NCBI GenBank assembly: GCA_015486075.1
Contig: WFSG01000011.1
Span: 1 to 64,000 of the forward strand
DNA: 64,000 bases
Source of the DNA: Deltaproteobacteria bacterium
GTDB taxonomy: Bacteria > Desulfobacterota > Desulfomonilia > UBA1062
Reading direction: 5' to 3'
This document shows, in pieces, positions 4,022-14,776 of the stretch. The notes under the pieces are model-generated. The model did not search any database. It worked only from the letters and a program-made list of their open reading frames with translations, and was not told where the DNA came from. Positions within the stretch are counted from its first letter, which is position 1. Each line of letters starts with the position of its first letter. Both the position numbers and the translations under genes were made by a program.

Positions 4022-4278
4022 TACCACCCTCCTCGTGTATTATAAGATCTTGGTTAAAACATTAAATAAATATACGAAGGATTTAAAAGAGTCAAATGTT
4101 CATGATGAAAGACAGGTAGGAGGCGAAAAACTGGTCAGCTTAGAGCTGGCAGGTAATAGCTGGGTTTTTCATTTATGGCTTTCCTCGGGGCGAGGCGTAA
4201 GGTATAATCAAGACTTAAAGGACAAGAGATCCTGGTTAATTTAACCCTGGGTATTATCAAGATGTAAGGAGGTTTGAC
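4022..4278. other. Intergenic region upstream of the Fe-S/glycyl radical operon
   Basis: No convincing gene is present between the divergent manC and Fe-S genes. Two features stand out: a TATAAT hexamer at 4203-4208 with a poor -35 partner, and a 13-base perfect palindrome GGTTAATTTAACC at 4234-4246, about 32 bases before the Fe-S protein start and just downstream of where that hexamer would start transcription. A short GAGGCGT/AAGGTAT run at about 4190-4206 resembles the heptamer repeats seen elsewhere in the window. Confidence 0.4.
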
Positions 4279-5310
4279 ATGTTTTATCCTGAAAGATGTA
4301 CTGTTTGTGGTGAGTGCCTTATGCGTTGTCCTTATCTCAACTACCCTGAGGACAAGGCAAAGGAAGAGTTTGCCAAGCTTATGAAGGGCGAGCCCACTCC
4401 TGTTACCCAGGAGTGCATTACCTGTGCAGCGTGCAACATGTTCTGCCCAGAGGGTGCCAACCCTTTTGACCTGATCAATGAGAGGCAAGAGATAGAAGAT
4501 GCCTTTAAACCCACTGATCAGGCGCTCTCGATGATGAAAATAGCCTCAGAGCTTCCTTCAGAGATAATCAAGGGGGATCCTGGCAAGCCCTTTATGAACC
4601 TGTGCTCGGTGGGTGACCTGCTACCTGGTGTCATAGAGGGCAGGCTCTTCGACGGGCTTAATTTTACAAAGGGGGGAGACTACTTCTGTTACATAGGCTG
4701 GCTTCACATAGGTAAGCCTAGCATGGTAAGGGACAATGCACAGAGGTTCGTGGATAACCTGGCAAAGACAGGTGCCAAGGAAATCATATGCTACCATGAT
4801 GACTGCTACACCATGCTCACGTCTAAGGTAAAGGAATTTGGAATAGAGCTACCTTTCAAGCCCGTGCATATAGTAGAGTACCTGCGTGACTATGTCAGGG
4901 ACCATATATCAGAGGTAACAAGGCTTGACATGAAGATAGGATACCAACAGCCATGCGCCTCCAGGTATACGTTTGAAAAGGATGGTATCATAGACGAACT
5001 TTTTGAACTTATAGGAGTTACCAGGGTGGATAGGAAGTACGACAGGGTCAATGCACTCTGTTGCTCAGGTGCAATGGCAGGCAAGTCTGGCGTGCCTAAG
5101 GATACAATAAACGAGTGGAGGATGAAAAACATCCTCGATGCAAAGGAAGCAGGGGCAGAGGCCATGGTCTTCCTGTGTCCTTTATGCGCGCTGTCCCTCC
5201 GTAACAGGGCAAAATCCCAGGGACTTGAGCCCTACATGATAAGCAACCTAGTACGCCTTGCTCTTGGCGAGGAGCTTAGTAACGGGGGTGCTGGCAAGAT
5301 TTACGGGTAA
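4279..5310 (+). CDS. HdrD/GlpC-like protein with two [4Fe-4S] ferredoxin motifs and a CCG domain
   Basis: This 343-residue protein combines ferredoxin-type clusters (Cys7, 10, 13, 17 and Cys46, 49, 52, 56) with a heterodisulfide-reductase-type CCG domain (Cys226, Cys261-Cys262, Cys300, Cys303). An upstream copy of the CCG region (Cys171, Cys176) has lost most ligands, so only one CCG cluster is expected. The architecture is that of HdrD, GlpC and related electron-transfer subunits, with no membrane segment or flavin domain. It has a strong AAGGAGG ribosome-binding site and is followed after 13 bases by the glycyl radical enzyme gene, so the two are surely co-transcribed. Its electron donor and acceptor cannot be read from the sequence. 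Confidence 0.75.
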   Translation: MFYPERCTVCGECLMRCPYLNYPEDKAKEEFAKLMKGEPTPVTQECITCAACNMFCPEGANPFDLINERQEIEDAFKPTDQALSMMKIASELPSEIIKGDPGKPFMNLCSVGDLLPGVIEGRLFDGLNFTKGGDYFCYIGWLHIGKPSMVRDNAQRFVDNLAKTGAKEIICYHDDCYTMLTSKVKEFGIELPFKPVHIVEYLRDYVRDHISEVTRLDMKIGYQQPCASRYTFEKDGIIDELFELIGVTRVDRKYDRVNALCCSGAMAGKSGVPKDTINEWRMKNILDAKEAGAEAMVFLCPLCALSLRNRAKSQGLEPYMISNLVRLALGEELSNGGAGKIYG

Positions 5311-5323
5311 AAGGAGGTAATAC

Positions 5324-7702
5324 ATGGGAAGAGGTGCACTGGCTGTTGGGCAGCGCGAGGAGCAAGCAAGGAGGTCCGGGCGTTTTGCAAGGATAAAGAG
5401 GGAACTTCTTTCACACAAGGTTCACCTATGCCCAGAGAGGGCATTACTGGTAACCGAGTATTTCAAGCACCACGACGACCCTAGGCAACCCATGATAGTC
5501 CGCAAGGCAAGGGCACTTAGGTACGTGCTGGAAAACAAGTCGATCAACATATATCCAGACGAGCTCATAGTTGGAAACCCTGGATCGCACAGGATATCGG
5601 CCCTTATGCAGCCCGAGCTTGCAGGGGTCTTCATGTCAGAGGATATACTATGGATAGACAGGAGAAAGACCAACCCGCTCGTGATATCATGGCCCGATCG
5701 CCTGAAACTTATGTTCAAGGTGTTTCCCTTCTGGCTGTTCAGGAACATGCCTTTTAGGGCATTCTACCCTCATTTTGGGCACCTGCTGAGATACGTGATG
5801 GAGCAGCTCAATGCCACGTACTACCTTATAAACGAGGCAGGTGGCATTGGTCATTTCCTTCCCAACTACGAAAAGATGCTTAAGCTTGGCGTGGAGGGCT
5901 ACCTAGAACTCATGGAAGGAAAGGACTCAGTTTTCCGAAGGGCAGCGAGGATAGCTTCAGAAGGCCTGGTAAACTATGCGAAGCGTACCTCTAGGGCTGC
6001 CCTTGAGATGGCGGCCAGGGAAAAGGACCCTTCAAGGGCAATGGAATTGAAGGACATAGCACGTGTATGCAACAATGTCCCGTTAAAGCCAGCCCGCACC
6101 TTCCATGAGGCCTTGCAGTCACTGTGGTTCACGCACATGGCACTTGAACTGGAGGGCCTTAACTCTGCAATATCCTTTGGCAGGATAGACCAGTACCTTT
6201 ACCCGTACTACAAGGCAGACCTTGAGGCTGGCAGGATCACGCCCGATGATGCAAGGGAATTACTGCTCAGCTTCTCCGCCAAGACAACTGAACACGTGTT
6301 CCTGCTTTCCGAGAGGACCAGCCAGTACCACGGCGGGTACCTGGTTGTGCAGGCAGCCATTGTGGGCGGGATGGACAAGCAAGGTAGCGATGCCGTCAAC
6401 GATCTCACTTACTTGTTTCTCGATGTAATGGAGGAAGCAGGGCTCAGGGACCCCAATTACCAGGCACGCATACATGAAGGATCTCCTGACGAGTACCTGT
6501 CAAGGGTAGTAGAGGTGGCAAAGAAAGGTGACGGTGTACCAGCTGTTTTCAGCGACGAGGCAGCTATAAGGTCACTAGTGAACCAGGGATACCCCATTGA
6601 AGATGCGCGTAATTATGGTGTTGTAGGCTGCGTGGAGTTCTCCATACCTGGGAAGAGCTTTTTATCCACCGATGCTGGGCTCTTTAACCTTCCCTTGTGC
6701 CTGGAGCTGGCGCTCAATTCCGGGAAAAGGATAAAGGGCTGGCGTAGGATAGGTGCCAAGACCCCTGATCCCTTAAGCTTTACCAGTATGGAGCAGGTCG
6801 TCAATGCATTCAGGGACCAGGTGGAGTACATGGTATCACGCATGGTGGATGATATCCAGGTCATAGAAAGGGGCAACAGGGATTATCACCCTACACCTTT
6901 ACAATCCATGCTGGTGGACGGGTGCATTGAGAAGGACATGGACTTGACCGCTGGAGGAGCTGTGTATAACTCCAGCGGCATACAGGGAGTTGGCGTTGCA
7001 GACGTGGCTGACTCGCTGGCAGCAATAGACGAGGTCGTGTTCAAGAAAAGAAAGTATGCCATGAAACAGGTGATAGATGCAGTGCACGACAACTTTGCCT
7101 CTTACCCAGAGGTAAGGGCAGAACTTCTCAAGGCGCCCAAGTTCGGCAACGATAATCCCATGGTGGATGGCTATGCAAGGCTTGTTGCAGGCATATTCTA
7201 CGATGCCCTGACAAGGCATCAGAATACACGTGGTGGCCCGTATGTGCCTGGTTTTTACTCGGTTACCTGCCATGTTGCCTTTGGCCAGAGGACAGGCGCA
7301 CTCCCCAGCGGCAGGCTTTCTGGAGAACCCTTTGCCTCCAGCCTGGGCGCTGCAAACGGGCGCGATAGGCTGGGACCAACGGCATTACTAAACTCCGTGG
7401 CAAGGATTGAGCCCGAGCTTGCGCCCAATGGCTATGCACTGAACCTGAGGTTCGACAAGCGTGTGCTGGAGGGCGATAGAGGCAAGAACATACTAAAGGG
7501 CCTAGTAAGGGGGTTCTTCTCATCCGGTGGCATGGAGATGCAGTTCAACGTGTTGGATCCAGATATCCTTGAAGATGCGATAAAAAACCCGGGCAAGTAC
7601 CCTGGCCTTGTAGTGCGTGTCTCAGGCTACCTTGCATACTTTGATGATCTTCCGTACGCTGCAAAGAGGGAGATAGCGGCGCGTACGCGCCTGGAGGCAT
7701 AG
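5324..7702 (+). CDS. Glycyl radical enzyme of the dehydratase/lyase type, substrate unknown
   Basis: This 792-residue protein has both signatures of glycyl radical enzymes: the thiyl-radical motif GCVE with Cys436 and Glu438, and the C-terminal radical loop VVRVSGY with Gly768. Glu two residues after Cys is typical of glycerol/propanediol dehydratase, choline lyase and hydroxyproline dehydratase relatives. It argues against pyruvate formate-lyase (Cys-Cys) and arylsuccinate synthases. GHFLPNYEKMLKLG matches the conserved active-site His region, but the GHS-type substrate residues of glycerol dehydratase are replaced near LNSAISFGRIDQY. The start has a perfect AAAAGGAGG site. No radical-SAM activase lies nearby. 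The substrate is unassigned. Confidence 0.85.
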   Translation: MGRGALAVGQREEQARRSGRFARIKRELLSHKVHLCPERALLVTEYFKHHDDPRQPMIVRKARALRYVLENKSINIYPDELIVGNPGSHRISALMQPELAGVFMSEDILWIDRRKTNPLVISWPDRLKLMFKVFPFWLFRNMPFRAFYPHFGHLLRYVMEQLNATYYLINEAGGIGHFLPNYEKMLKLGVEGYLELMEGKDSVFRRAARIASEGLVNYAKRTSRAALEMAAREKDPSRAMELKDIARVCNNVPLKPARTFHEALQSLWFTHMALELEGLNSAISFGRIDQYLYPYYKADLEAGRITPDDARELLLSFSAKTTEHVFLLSERTSQYHGGYLVVQAAIVGGMDKQGSDAVNDLTYLFLDVMEEAGLRDPNYQARIHEGSPDEYLSRVVEVAKKGDGVPAVFSDEAAIRSLVNQGYPIEDARNYGVVGCVEFSIPGKSFLSTDAGLFNLPLCLELALNSGKRIKGWRRIGAKTPDPLSFTSMEQVVNAFRDQVEYMVSRMVDDIQVIERGNRDYHPTPLQSMLVDGCIEKDMDLTAGGAVYNSSGIQGVGVADVADSLAAIDEVVFKKRKYAMKQVIDAVHDNFASYPEVRAELLKAPKFGNDNPMVDGYARLVAGIFYDALTRHQNTRGGPYVPGFYSVTCHVAFGQRTGALPSGRLSGEPFASSLGAANGRDRLGPTALLNSVARIEPELAPNGYALNLRFDKRVLEGDRGKNILKGLVRGFFSSGGMEMQFNVLDPDILEDAIKNPGKYPGLVVRVSGYLAYFDDLPYAAKREIAARTRLEA

Positions 7703-7750: not shown

Positions 7751-8410
7751 TCATTGTACGCCAGGCCTCTTGGCCCTAAGTAGCCTCACGTATCCCCTGA
7801 AAAACAGGTGCTCTGTGAAATCTCCAAAGCCTGCACCAGAGAGCATGGATCTTAAATCCCTCTGTATGAAGTCAAACGCATATGGACACTCGAGTATCTT
7901 GAAGCCTATCCTTTCATAGAACGGTTTGCTCTCAAGTGAGAACTCGTTGTAATCTAGGATAAAGAATTCGCCGCCTTCTCTTAATACATTGAACGCGTTT
8001 TTTATAACAACTTGCCTGGCATGCTGAGGGAGGCCGTGAAGTACGAATGAGATGAATACCTTGTTGAACTCGCCGTGGAACGGGAGGTCCTTATCAGCCC
8101 TTATCTTGATTATGTCTACCCCTTGCCTGCCCGAACACTTCTTTTTGAATTGTTCTATCATATCGTCTGATATGTCTATGCCGGTGATCTTGCCCTTACC
8201 TGATAGGTGTTTAAGCATGTAACAGGCGTTCGTGCCCGTACCAGCACCCATGTCCAGGATTTCATCACCAGGTATGATCCCCATCTTAGAGATGACATCC
8301 TTGATAAAATGCCGGTACATGCCTAGGGTCATGAGCATCATTATGGTATCGTAGTGCCTTGCAAGGAATCCATGTATCTCCACGTTTGAATCTGGATAGA
8401 TTCTATCCAT
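7751..8410 (-). CDS. Class I SAM-dependent methyltransferase
   Basis: This protein of about 219 residues has the Rossmann methyltransferase motif I ILDMGAGTGTNACYML, an acidic residue at the end of strand 2 (ITGIDISDDMI) and a motif IV-like segment KVFISFVLHGLP. It resembles ubiquinone/menaquinone methyltransferase-like (UbiE-type) proteins, but the substrate cannot be told. ATG at 8410 is chosen over 8428 because GGAGGTAAGG precedes it; the longer form starting at 8428 would consume that site. It is convergent with the glycyl radical gene and lies 67 bases downstream of a second methyltransferase in the same orientation. Confidence 0.75.
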   Translation of the reverse strand: MDRIYPDSNVEIHGFLARHYDTIMMLMTLGMYRHFIKDVISKMGIIPGDEILDMGAGTGTNACYMLKHLSGKGKITGIDISDDMIEQFKKKCSGRQGVDIIKIRADKDLPFHGEFNKVFISFVLHGLPQHARQVVIKNAFNVLREGGEFFILDYNEFSLESKPFYERIGFKILECPYAFDFIQRDLRSMLSGAGFGDFTEHLFFRGYVRLLRAKRPGVQ

Positions 8411-8476
8411 GGTCAGCCTTACCTCCATTTCTTTTATATATACTTTTTGTGCATTCCTTCACGCCATGTGGCCATA

Positions 8477-9094
8477 TTAGCTATTTTGCTTTCTGAAATT
8501 GATCACGTGGCCCCTGTTGTAATAGTAGTCATGAATAAGGGTGAGGGAGTACCTTGAGTCTAGTACAAGGCCAGATGCCTCCACCTCTTCTATCATGTCG
8601 TCTAGATCCATGCTTGATAGGTGCCACAAGGGTTCGTCATGCTTTGAGTGCTTCGGATACACGGAGAGAAGGCCACTTGGCCTGAGTACCCTCTTTATCT
8701 CCTGGTACAGCAATCTTCTCTCATCCTTTTCCATGTAGTGCAGCATGTCATAGGTGAGCACCACGTCTACGAAGTTATCTTCGAGATCTATTCTGGGCTC
8801 TCCCTGGGCCCTGATTGTACTGATGTTATCGAGGCCCATGTTTCTAGCTGACTTGGCTATGTCCTCAAGGGAACCAGGATTTTTATCCATTGCATAGACG
8901 TGACCGTGCTCGCCCACTACCCTTGCAGCGGGTATGGTATAGTGTCCTGATCCTGCACCCAGATCAAGTACCCTTATAGGACCTGTTATGCCTATGCTGC
9001 GGAAGAATATCTCTCCATCTATCGAAAGCCATGCCTTAACGAGGTCATTCATCCCTTGAACCCTAATACCAGTTACCAGGTGCCTGTAAAACAA
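8477..9094 (-). CDS. Class I SAM-dependent methyltransferase
   Basis: This 205-residue protein has motif I as VLDLGAGSGHYTIPAARVVG, the SAM ribose-binding acid in VYAMDKNPGS and a motif IV-like VVLTYDMLHYME, followed by a typical KRVLRPSGLLSVYPK segment. It probably forms an operon with the downstream methyltransferase, and the two are only distantly alike in sequence. The gene is divergent from the LysM/glycoside-hydrolase-like gene, with about 100 bases between the starts. No substrate can be proposed. Confidence 0.75.
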   Translation of the reverse strand: MFYRHLVTGIRVQGMNDLVKAWLSIDGEIFFRSIGITGPIRVLDLGAGSGHYTIPAARVVGEHGHVYAMDKNPGSLEDIAKSARNMGLDNISTIRAQGEPRIDLEDNFVDVVLTYDMLHYMEKDERRLLYQEIKRVLRPSGLLSVYPKHSKHDEPLWHLSSMDLDDMIEEVEASGLVLDSRYSLTLIHDYYYNRGHVINFRKQNS

Positions 9095-10523: not shown

Positions 10524-10620
10524 TGGCGGAAGCGCATGGGAATCGAACCCACCCAGGACGCTCGACGCATCCCACACCGGATTTGAAGTCCGGGGGATCC
10601 ACCAGGACCCGTCCGCTTCC
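10524..10620 (-). tRNA. selC: tRNA-Sec (anticodon UCA)
   Basis: This 97-base minus-strand gene has the hallmarks of bacterial selenocysteine tRNA: anticodon loop CTTCAAA (anticodon TCA) on a stem of CCGGA/TCCGG, an extended six-pair D stem (GGGTCC with GGATCC), a long variable arm, and a T arm with TTCGATT. The encoded 3' end is GCCA. Seven acceptor pairs are clear (GGAAGCG with CGCTTCC); the eighth would be a G-G mismatch by my reading. Its presence shows that the organism inserts selenocysteine, although selA, selB, selD and selenoprotein genes are not in the window. Confidence 0.93.
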
Positions 10621-11252: not shown

Positions 11253-12641
11253 ATGGCAAGGAATGCGGACACTGATTACGATCTTATCGTGGTGGGTGCA
11301 GGTAGTGGTGGTTGTGCGCTATCAAAGACTGCAGCAGAGGCTGGCTTAAAAGTCCTGCTGATAGATAGGCGCAAGAAGGAGGAGATAGGCGAGAAACTGA
11401 CGTTTGACACCATACCTGCGTACGTGTTCAGGGAGTTTGGTATACCTGTTCCAGAAGGTGATGAACTCGACTTCAGGATGACAAAGCTACGGGTGTTCTC
11501 GCCTAGCAAGGTATACTCTTTCGAGGCGGATGTGGATGCATACCTGGTGCACAGGAGACTCCTGGGCCAGCGTCTTTTAAAATATGCCCTTGATGCCAAC
11601 TGTGATTTCCTTTCCGAGACCGATGTCATGGGGCCCATTATAGAGGATGATTTTCTCGTCGGTGTCAGGTGCAGGACAGCAGACGGAACCGTGAAGGAAT
11701 TCAGGTCAAAGGTAACATGTGATGCCAGCGGTTTCACCGCGGTGATACGAAACAAGTTGCCTGATAAGGTCTATCATAACGAAAGCCTACTACCCGAGGA
11801 TACCGTGGTCTGCTACAGGGAGGTGAGGGACCTCGTGGGTAGCTCGGGATACACCCCTGATCCGGATTACCCTGGCTGGTACTGTTACCTCCAGAATCGT
11901 GGATATTTCTGGGTTGTACCCGAGCAGAAAGGCAAGACCAACGTGGGTTGTGGGCTGCCCATGTTTCCAGACCATCCAGATCCTAGGGCAGTTACAATCG
12001 AATTCTGTGAATCCAATCCTGGCGTCTTTGGAAAAAAGGTATATGCAAGTGGGACCGGTCCAACGCCTTTCATTCCGGTGCGTGCAGACCAGCCCGAGCT
12101 TGTAGGAAACGGTTTCGTCCTGGTGGGAGATGCGGGTTATCAGGTATCAACAAACTCTGCATACGGTGTTCCTGCATCTCTCCTTGCAGGTAAAATGGCA
12201 GCAGGTGTCATAAAGAGGGCTATAGAGAGAGGAGACGTAAGCAGGGAAGGGCTGTGGGAGTATAATGTCATGTGGAAGCAAGGTCCTGGTGCGTTTCGTG
12301 CCTTTGCTGACGGTATACGACTGTTCGTGCAGAACATATCGCATGATGATATCAATACGCTTATCAAGGGAAGGATACTTGGTCCAAAGGAATTCAGTGC
12401 CATATGGAGCGATCAGGTCTTTGGCTATGGCATAGTCGAGATGGTGAGTAAGTTTGTAAACAACTTCATGCATATGGGTCTCCTTATAAAGGCATTCCTT
12501 GTATTCCTACTGAGTAGGAGGCTCAATAGCCTGTACAGAAATTTCCCGTCGGACATAGGGTCTTTCGACGAGTGGATGTCAAAGAGAAGGAAGACCTACA
12601 ATATGCTCTTCAGCGTCCTAGGTGTAAACAGGGGACTGTAA
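11253..12641 (+). CDS. Geranylgeranyl reductase family FAD-dependent oxidoreductase
   Basis: This 462-residue flavoprotein begins with a GxGxxG dinucleotide fold (DLIVVGAGSGGCALSKTAA) and has the family's middle segment YCYLQNRGYFWVVPEQKGKTNVGCG and the second FAD motif GFVLVGDAGYQVSTNSAYG. Members reduce isoprenoid double bonds in chlorophyll, menaquinone or archaeal lipids, or act on other hydrophobic substrates; the bacterial role here is unknown. The C-terminus carries a moderately hydrophobic stretch (MGLLIKAFLVFLLSRR) that could associate with the membrane. A strong AAAGGAGG site precedes the ATG. Confidence 0.75.
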   Translation: MARNADTDYDLIVVGAGSGGCALSKTAAEAGLKVLLIDRRKKEEIGEKLTFDTIPAYVFREFGIPVPEGDELDFRMTKLRVFSPSKVYSFEADVDAYLVHRRLLGQRLLKYALDANCDFLSETDVMGPIIEDDFLVGVRCRTADGTVKEFRSKVTCDASGFTAVIRNKLPDKVYHNESLLPEDTVVCYREVRDLVGSSGYTPDPDYPGWYCYLQNRGYFWVVPEQKGKTNVGCGLPMFPDHPDPRAVTIEFCESNPGVFGKKVYASGTGPTPFIPVRADQPELVGNGFVLVGDAGYQVSTNSAYGVPASLLAGKMAAGVIKRAIERGDVSREGLWEYNVMWKQGPGAFRAFADGIRLFVQNISHDDINTLIKGRILGPKEFSAIWSDQVFGYGIVEMVSKFVNNFMHMGLLIKAFLVFLLSRRLNSLYRNFPSDIGSFDEWMSKRRKTYNMLFSVLGVNRGL

Positions 12642-12895: not shown

Positions 12896-14776
12896 ATGGA
12901 GAATAAAAATAGCGTTAATAGCAGGAAACTTGTTTCAGTCAAGGGTAAGGCCCTGAAGGACCTTTTTACTGACCCGGATGTTATTGCTGCAAAGGTGGAC
13001 GGCAGGATAGTAGACCTGTCCACAAGCCTTAATGGAGGCAAGGAGGTAGAACCTGTAAGCATGCACAGCAAAGAGGGCCTGGAGATCCTAAGGCATTCCA
13101 CTGCACACGTCATGGCAGAGGCCGTGAAGGCCCTTTTCCCGGACGCAAGGCCTACCATAGGACCGGCCACCGATGAAGGTTTCTACTATGACTTTGACAG
13201 GGACACGCCGTTTTCGTCCGAGGATCTGGCATCCATTGAAAAGAAGATGCAGGATATCATAGCCTCTGATAAGCCCTTTATACGCAAGGAGATACCCAAG
13301 GAGGATGCCGTAAGGTACTTCACCGACCAGCATGAGCCTTACAAGGTAGAGATATTAAATGACATAGAGGACGATACAGTGTCCCTCTACACGCAGGGCG
13401 ATTTCACAGACCTGTGCCGTGGGCCACACATACCATCAACAGGCTACATCAAGGCTTTCAAGCTACTCAGCGTTGCCGGTGCCTACTGGAGGGGTGACGA
13501 GCATAACAAGATGCTGCAAAGGATATACGGCACAGCGTTTGCCTCTAAGGAGGAGCTTGATAAGTACCTGGAGTTTTTAGAGGAATCCAAGAAGAGGGAT
13601 CACAGAAAGCTGGGCAGAGAACTTGAACTCTTCATGATGTCCGACGAAGTGGGTCCTGGCCTCATAATATACCTGCCAAAGGGGGGGATGCTGCGCTCCA
13701 TACTGGAGGACTTTGAGAAGAGGCTTCACCTTAAAAGGGGCTATGACATCGTATACGGCCCAGGCATCTTGAAGGGCGAGCTGTGGAAGATCTCCGGCCA
13801 CATGGATAATTACAGGGAAAACATGTACTTCACCGAGGTGGATAACCAGCTATACGGCATAAAGCCCATGAATTGCCTTTCACATATCCTTATTTACAGG
13901 TCTAAGATAAGAAGCTACAGGGATTTGCCCCTCAGGTACTTTGAACTTGGCACGGTAACCAGGCACGAGAAGTCAGGGGTGTTGCACGGTCTTTTGAGGG
14001 TCAGGCAATTTACCCAGGATGACGCACACATATTTTGCATGCCAGATCAGCTCATCGACGAGATAATATCCATAATCAACCTCGTGGACGAGGTTATGGC
14101 ACTCTTTGGTTTTGATTACGAGACAGAGATAAGCACAAGACCGGAAAAGTCAATAGGCACGGACGAGGAATGGGAACTTGCAACCAATGCCCTCAAGCAG
14201 GCCCTTGAAGTCAAAGGTCTTGAGTACGACATAAACGAGGGCGACGGGGCATTTTACGGGCCAAAGATAGACATAAAGCTTAAAGATGCAATTGGAAGGA
14301 AATGGCAATGTGCGACCATCCAGTGCGACTTTTCCCTTCCGCAGAGGTTTGACCTGTCCTACATAGGTCCAGATGGACAAAAGCACAGACCTGTAATGCT
14401 CCACAGGGTTATACTGGGTACAATAGAACGTTTCATGGGCGTGCTCATTGAGCACTATGCAGGGGCGTTCCCTACCTGGCTGGCACCTGTACAGGTTGTG
14501 GTCATGAGTATAACAGAAGCGCACTCTGGTTACGCGGGTGACATTGCCCAAAGGCTTGAAGAAGACGATATAAGGGTCGAACTTGATACAAGAAACGAGA
14601 AAATAGGCTACAAGGTAAGAGAAGCAAGGGCCATGAAGGTTCCTTACATGGCTATTGTCGGCCAGAGAGAAATGGACGAGAATACCATTACCTTAAGAGA
14701 CAGGTCGGGTAAGCAGGAAAAAACGACCGTTGATGATCTTATCTCTAGAATCAAGTCTTCAGTTCCCGAGATATGA
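12896..14776 (+). CDS. thrS: Threonine--tRNA ligase
   Basis: This 626-residue class II synthetase charges tRNA-Thr. An N-terminal TGS-like domain is followed by the editing domain ([16 protein letters not shown], and YDFDRDTPF), then the catalytic core with the zinc Cys in KPMNCLSHI, motif 2 region [21 protein letters not shown], and motif 3 [13 protein letters not shown], and a C-terminal anticodon-binding domain. Length is slightly short but complete. The ribosome-binding site GGGAG at 12880-12884 begins two bases after the tRNA-Val CCA end, so tRNA processing would set the 5' end of the mRNA. It is the first protein gene of the thrS-infC-rpmI-rplT-pheST operon. Confidence 0.96.

Follow-up and report, generated by a model that had tools for sequence, protein, structure and literature searches.

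As a rule, a glycyl radical enzyme (GRE) has an activase of its own encoded next to it. In a 64,000-nucleotide stretch of contig WFSG01000011.1 (contig C11 of its genome; hereafter the window), a GRE gene without such a neighbour follows a gene for a protein with ferredoxin and CCG domains, and the locus raises the question of how the enzyme (GRE-B) is activated, what it acts on, and whether the CCG protein (CCG343) is part of its chemistry. The original prediction, made from the window alone, took the lacking activase as a sign of special, CCG-based chemistry on a new class of substrate.

The two-gene locus

Both open reading frames were present at the predicted coordinates (Table 1), on the same strand and separated by 13 nt, and a good ribosome-binding site stands ahead of each; from this spacing and strand, the two genes are likely to be co-transcribed. 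The catalytic residues Cys436, Glu438 and Gly768 and the motif LNSAISFGR (residues 279-287) were found in GRE-B exactly as given before. After GRE-B, two class I methyltransferase genes lie on the opposite strand (7751-9094, -), the first of which is kept in a same-genus genome (L140). A selenocysteine tRNA gene was detected at 10524-10620 on the - strand (ARAGORN; Rfam RF01852, 77 bits).

Table 1. Positions in the window of the two genes, their ribosome-binding sites and the GRE-B active-site codons
Feature	Position	Strand	Basis
CCG343 (P0001), 343 aa; two 4Fe-4S ferredoxin motifs and one intact CCG (HdrD/GlcF-like) domain	4279..5310	+	
GRE-B (P0002), 792 aa; glycyl radical enzyme of an uncharacterised clade	5324..7702	+	
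Ribosome-binding site of the CCG gene, taaggaggt	4265..4273	+	sequence
Ribosome-binding site of the GRE-B gene, aaggagg	5311..5317	+	sequence
His177 codon, aligned to His164 of C. butyricum glycerol dehydratase (CbGD)	5852..5854	+	42/42 in clade
Ser281-Ala282 codons, at the CbGD His281-Ser282 positions; invariant in GRE-B	6164..6169	+	42/42 in clade
Cys436-Val437-Glu438, thiyl cysteine and eliminase glutamate	6629..6637	+	motif check, alignment
Asp450 codon, at the CbGD Asp447 position	6671..6673	+	42/42 in clade
Gly768 codon, glycyl radical site	7625..7627	+	motif check, alignment

Family membership of GRE-B

GRE-B was assigned to the glycyl radical enzyme superfamily by scores over the Pfam cut-offs for PFL-like (591 bits) and Gly_radical (91.3 bits), and fell below the NCBIfam cut-off of the PFL2-3 subfamily TIGR01774 (650.4 vs 678.2 bits). 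Against the named NCBIfam equivalogs CutC, HypD, PflD, HpsG, HpfG, IAD and HPAD it reached at best about half the cut-off, scoring 502 bits for CutC (TIGR04394, cut-off 1050), 496 bits for HypD (NF043068, cut-off 1100), and 475 and 458 bits for the sulfopropanediol lyases HpsG and HpfG (cut-offs 1000). The best PDB relatives were 36-37% identical to GRE-B. The top sequence score in the PDB was that of Archaeoglobus fulgidus PFL2 (AfPFL2, 2f3o, function unknown; 37.6% identity), followed, among the sequences compared directly, by glycerol dehydratase with 35.5%; AfPFL2 has Ala at position 282, Asp at 447 and Tyr at 640 in common with GRE-B, but lies outside its clade.

A scan of genome contigs recovered relatives of GRE-B at 59-88% identity from Chloroflexota, Desulfobacterota, Actinomycetota and Spirochaetes, after which identity dropped to about 32%; further genomes added a sister group at 42-45% identity, three inspected members of which have an activase adjacent. 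In a FastTree phylogeny of 107 GREs, the GRE-B clade comprised 42 sequences (support 0.977) and contained no characterised reference, its sister consisted of the 42-45% set and a plasmid-borne Moraxella GRE, and the glycerol and propanediol dehydratases (CbGD and PD) grouped together, away from GRE-B. Isethionate lyase IslA had no sequence in this tree and was about 30% identical to GRE-B in Foldseek. By its low equivalog scores, its separate clade and its PDB relatives, GRE-B represents a GRE family that is uncharacterised and distinct from each of the reference families tested, as predicted from the window, and did not cluster inside HypD or CutC, the outcome that had been named as speaking against a new class.

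GREs that are 39% identical to GRE-B, with an activase gene adjoining, were also encountered on plasmids of Moraxellaceae, which is odd as the hosts are aerobes. One, on Moraxella osloensis pYHS2 (L267 6959-10334), belongs to the sister group and is flanked by Tn3-family transposase genes; the other is on Acinetobacter towneri NZ_CP127890 (43714-46062).

Active site and predicted structure

Cys436 and Glu438 were invariant in 42/42 clade members and Gly768 in the 41/41 that cover its position, so the intact catalytic set, equivalent to C433, E435 and G763 of CbGD, is not a product of chance; on the same invariance, a dead enzyme was ruled out. The Cys-x-Glu signature of GRE eliminases was present as C436-V-E438 in all 42, and is common to GRE-B, CutC and HypD, whereas Asp447 and other positions differ in the latter two.

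The diol-site residues of CbGD, which we take to be H164, H281, S282, E435, D447 and Y640, were kept in part. In the alignment to CbGD, the equivalents of His164, Glu435 and Asp447 were invariant and that of Tyr640 was found in 41/42, whereas His281 was replaced by Ser, Ser282 by Ala and Tyr339 by Val or Ala throughout the clade. The first two of these replacements are the differences from glycerol dehydratase around LNSAISFGR that the prediction had pointed out. GRE-A, the second GRE described below, keeps the diol-site His and Glu and has Val at the Asp447 position.

An AlphaFold model of GRE-B (pLDDT 86, pTM 0.89) was matched best in Foldseek by glycerol dehydratase 1r8w (TM 0.92; 36% identity), then by 2f3o and propanediol dehydratases. 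Taken together, the kept diol residues, the altered positions and the fold match point to a diol-type eliminase with a different pocket; from alignment and model this pocket is probably roomier, and GRE-B is likely to catalyse an eliminase reaction. Were it an ordinary glycerol or 1,2-propanediol dehydratase whose sequence had drifted, the top Foldseek match and the conserved H, E, D and Y would be accounted for, but this is improbable for an enzyme that stands apart from CbGD and PD in the tree, is 32-36% identical to them and is altered clade-wide at positions 281, 282 and 339, and beside which no microcompartment or propanediol genes were seen at the loci inspected.

The activase and a split operon

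No activase was found in the window, in agreement with the prediction. The genome (100% complete) encodes four GREs and two GRE activases only, each activase adjoining another GRE (on C40 and C5), and both GRE-B on C11 and the fourth GRE on C41 are without an adjacent activase; the next radical-SAM matches were AmmeMemoRadiSam and NrdG2. An orphan activase dedicated to GRE-B, looked for elsewhere in the genome, was not found, since both activases stand beside other GREs. CCG343 was rejected as an activator because it has ferredoxin and CCG domains only and no radical-SAM domain was found in it.

Within the same family, at least nine genomes (G007, G010, G013, G016, G018, G020, G021, G022 and G023) had the genes arranged, with small variations and some truncation, in the order GntR/FadR regulator, GRE-A, activase, PNPOx-like flavoprotein and GRE-B. 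GRE-A is about 840 aa long and 30% identical to GRE-B. The operon was partial in G015, where contigs end, and the order in G091 was GRE-B, GRE-A', activase. In the window genome the GntR/GRE-A/activase/PNPOx block is intact on C40 (GRE-A and activase, G000:C40:13681-17149; radical-SAM activase, 13681-14568) and GRE-B is on C11, so the operon is split here. At least one activase was present in 49/50 GRE-B genomes. From this synteny, it is likely, with considerable confidence, that GRE-B shares the GRE-A-linked activase of C40, although the one on C5 could serve it instead. The view that the lacking activase marks CCG-based chemistry was not upheld, since an activase adjoins GRE-A in the related loci; a split operon whose activase is probably shared accounts for most of the puzzle.

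Three further observations concern these genes. The fourth GRE (L142 10398-12803, -; G000:C41) lies between an SDR gene and genes resembling CoA-transferase subunits. In one MAG locus (L244 2523-5078, -; G121:C38) the GRE-A frame is broken by a single TAA, either as a pseudogene or by sequencing error. The limonene GRE, which has a PNPOx-like neighbour, LssP, is an X-succinate synthase of a different family from GRE-A and GRE-B (PMC12583861).

Co-occurrence of GRE-A and GRE-B

Among 119 relatives, GRE-A was present in 17 of 18 genomes with GRE-B vs 17 of 101 without it (Fisher p = 2e-10), and in a second phylum, sampled at class level around a Dehalococcoidia genome, in 5 of 8 vs 6 of 189 (Fisher p = 1e-5); shared ancestry inflates both p values, above all that of the 119 relatives. 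In the sole exception among the 18 (G015), the contig ends inside the activase. GRE-A was not detected in 3/8 GRE-B genomes of the class sample and in about 8/32 others, which are MAGs of unstated completeness. The two enzymes thus co-occur far beyond chance and make up a widespread two-GRE system. Adjacent genes, strong co-occurrence and a single activase would also suit a single hetero-oligomer, or GRE-B as a helper of GRE-A with no independent activity; this appears quite improbable, however, as both proteins have complete Cys/Glu/Gly sets, several genomes carry only one of the pair, and the genes are unlinked in many genomes.

The CCG proteins

In CCG343 the ferredoxin motif CxxCxxCxxxC occurs twice and a perfect CCG motif once (C226-X34-CC-X37-CxxC), the first CCG half being degenerate. 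Like HdrD/GlcF/GlpC-type proteins it combines a CCG domain with two ferredoxin clusters, but it differs from them in its single intact CCG motif and in its weak NCBIfam scores against named families (17-29 bits).

Conservation of the CCG-GRE pair, on which the prediction depended, was found in part. The exact CCG343-GRE-B pair was observed within the genus only; in the sister genome G001, both flanks of the pair are syntenic with the window, and the contigs break between the two genes. Orthologues of 343 aa in G002 (71%) and G091 (62%) stand away from GRE-B; the window genome also has a paralogue (40%) on C5, where it lies with a GlcD-like oxidase and acyl-CoA genes. A different CCG protein of 450 aa (CCG450; 29% identical to CCG343) adjoins GRE-B in L024, L147 and L153, and in L289 two CCG450-like genes are close by, two genes away. 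The CCG450 orthologue of the window genome is on C33, its open frame stopping where the match stops. At most of about 55 GRE-B loci a CCG neighbour was absent. On this distribution, a CCG protein is a recurrent but not an obligate neighbour of GRE-B, and more than one family is involved.

The occurrence of CCG450 beside GRE-B in three genomes and near it in a fourth leaves room for a redox partnership, in which the GRE product would be oxidised or reduced through the CCG protein; the 13-nt spacing and the synteny of both broken G001 contigs also speak for it. We nevertheless regard it as unlikely, given the many GRE-B loci lacking a CCG gene and the separate placing of the CCG343 orthologues and paralogue. 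Speculatively, the CCG protein may be an accessory in electron transfer rather than an activator.

Glycerol and lipid neighbours

Clues to the substrate came from other loci, no lipid or glycerol gene adjoining GRE-B in the window. In L244 and L245 the gene immediately upstream of GRE-A, on the same strand, encodes glycerol kinase (glpK), and a lipase-like hydrolase, glpK and glpD stand beside GRE-A in the Chloroflexota loci L234 (divergent) and L257 (same strand), the hydrolase recurring in L278; three of the kinases (L234, L244 and L257) score above the curated glycerol-kinase cut-off. Further genes at L234 encode a fatty-acid CoA ligase and, judged only from how the sequence looks, a Liv-type transporter. 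GlpK was found within 5 kb of GRE-A in 4/50 loci, about three independent cases (P ~0.001 under a rough chance model). The GntR regulator of the C40 block has a FadR_C domain, and glpC and glpA adjoin CCG450-GRE-B in L024. These clues bear more on GRE-A than on GRE-B.

Two Chloroflexota genomes have a third GRE, about 990 aa long, next to GRE-A (L233 7072-10050, -; L278 11610-14579, -); about 200 extra aa at its N terminus weakly match the SCP2 sterol-transfer family, with 18-19 bits, slightly below the Pfam cut-off. The N-terminal region of the GRE of about 1000 aa in the window genome (G000:C5; L018 1084-4116, -) gave no SCP2 match and no PDB match. A geranylgeranyl-reductase-family gene is located in the vicinity of GRE-B in the window (11253-12641, +), and another immediately adjoins GRE-B in L050 (5170-6414, -).

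A glycerol- or lipid-derived class of substrate is a possible, if doubtful, reading of these neighbourhoods. A precedent for ether C-O cleavage is given by E. coli PflD and YbiW, described in the account of Ma et al. 2024 within PMC12441222 as GREs that cleave 1,5-anhydrohexitol 6-phosphates; they are 31-33% identical to GRE-B and, unlike it in the window, have their own activases (pflC, ybiY) adjacent. Literature searches for a link of GREs to ether lipids, to Dehalococcoidia or to glycerol kinase returned nothing directly relevant.

Proposed reaction and its setting

The explanation that we tentatively prefer, although we would give it slightly less than an even chance as a whole, is that GRE-B acts as a radical eliminase on a glycerol- or lipid-derived substrate and shares the activase of GRE-A. 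GRE-B would be a working enzyme of the diol-dehydratase type, one half of the two-GRE system, and the C40 activase would most likely install the radical on Gly768. The radical would pass to Cys436 as a thiyl radical, which would take a hydrogen from a hydroxyl-bearing carbon; with Glu438 as the base and His177, Asp450 and Tyr645 holding the neighbouring hydroxyls, the adjacent C-O bond would be eliminated. The substrate would probably be a glycerol derivative that bears one more substituent, which may be hydrophobic, e.g. a glycerolipid or alkyl-glycerol fragment.

The same lipid and glycerol neighbours, together with the geranylgeranyl-reductase-family genes, could belong to a system that makes glycerol lipids, e.g. 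anaerobic ether lipids, rather than breaking them; we consider this very unlikely, because most of the neighbouring genes point to catabolism (GlpK, GlpD, lipase-like hydrolase, fatty-acid CoA ligase and FadR-like regulator). In the direction of breakdown, a bolder and rather unlikely extension of the preferred reading is that GRE-A, GRE-B and, in some cases, the GRE with the SCP2-like extension, served by few activases, may constitute an undescribed radical route by which anaerobes of sediments, among them Dehalococcoidia and Desulfobacterota, degrade glycerol lipids and possibly also ether lipids.

A widespread pair of GREs, both uncharacterised, that seemingly shares one activase, and can be split across a genome, would explain some GREs that appear to be orphans, and the split operon cautions against giving weight to the absence of a neighbour. 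What remains of interest is the two-GRE system itself, which is widespread and may have a role in glycerol or lipid metabolism; if that link is true, the system would be a candidate means by which abundant uncultured bacteria of sediments open glycerol- or ether-linked lipids without oxygen.
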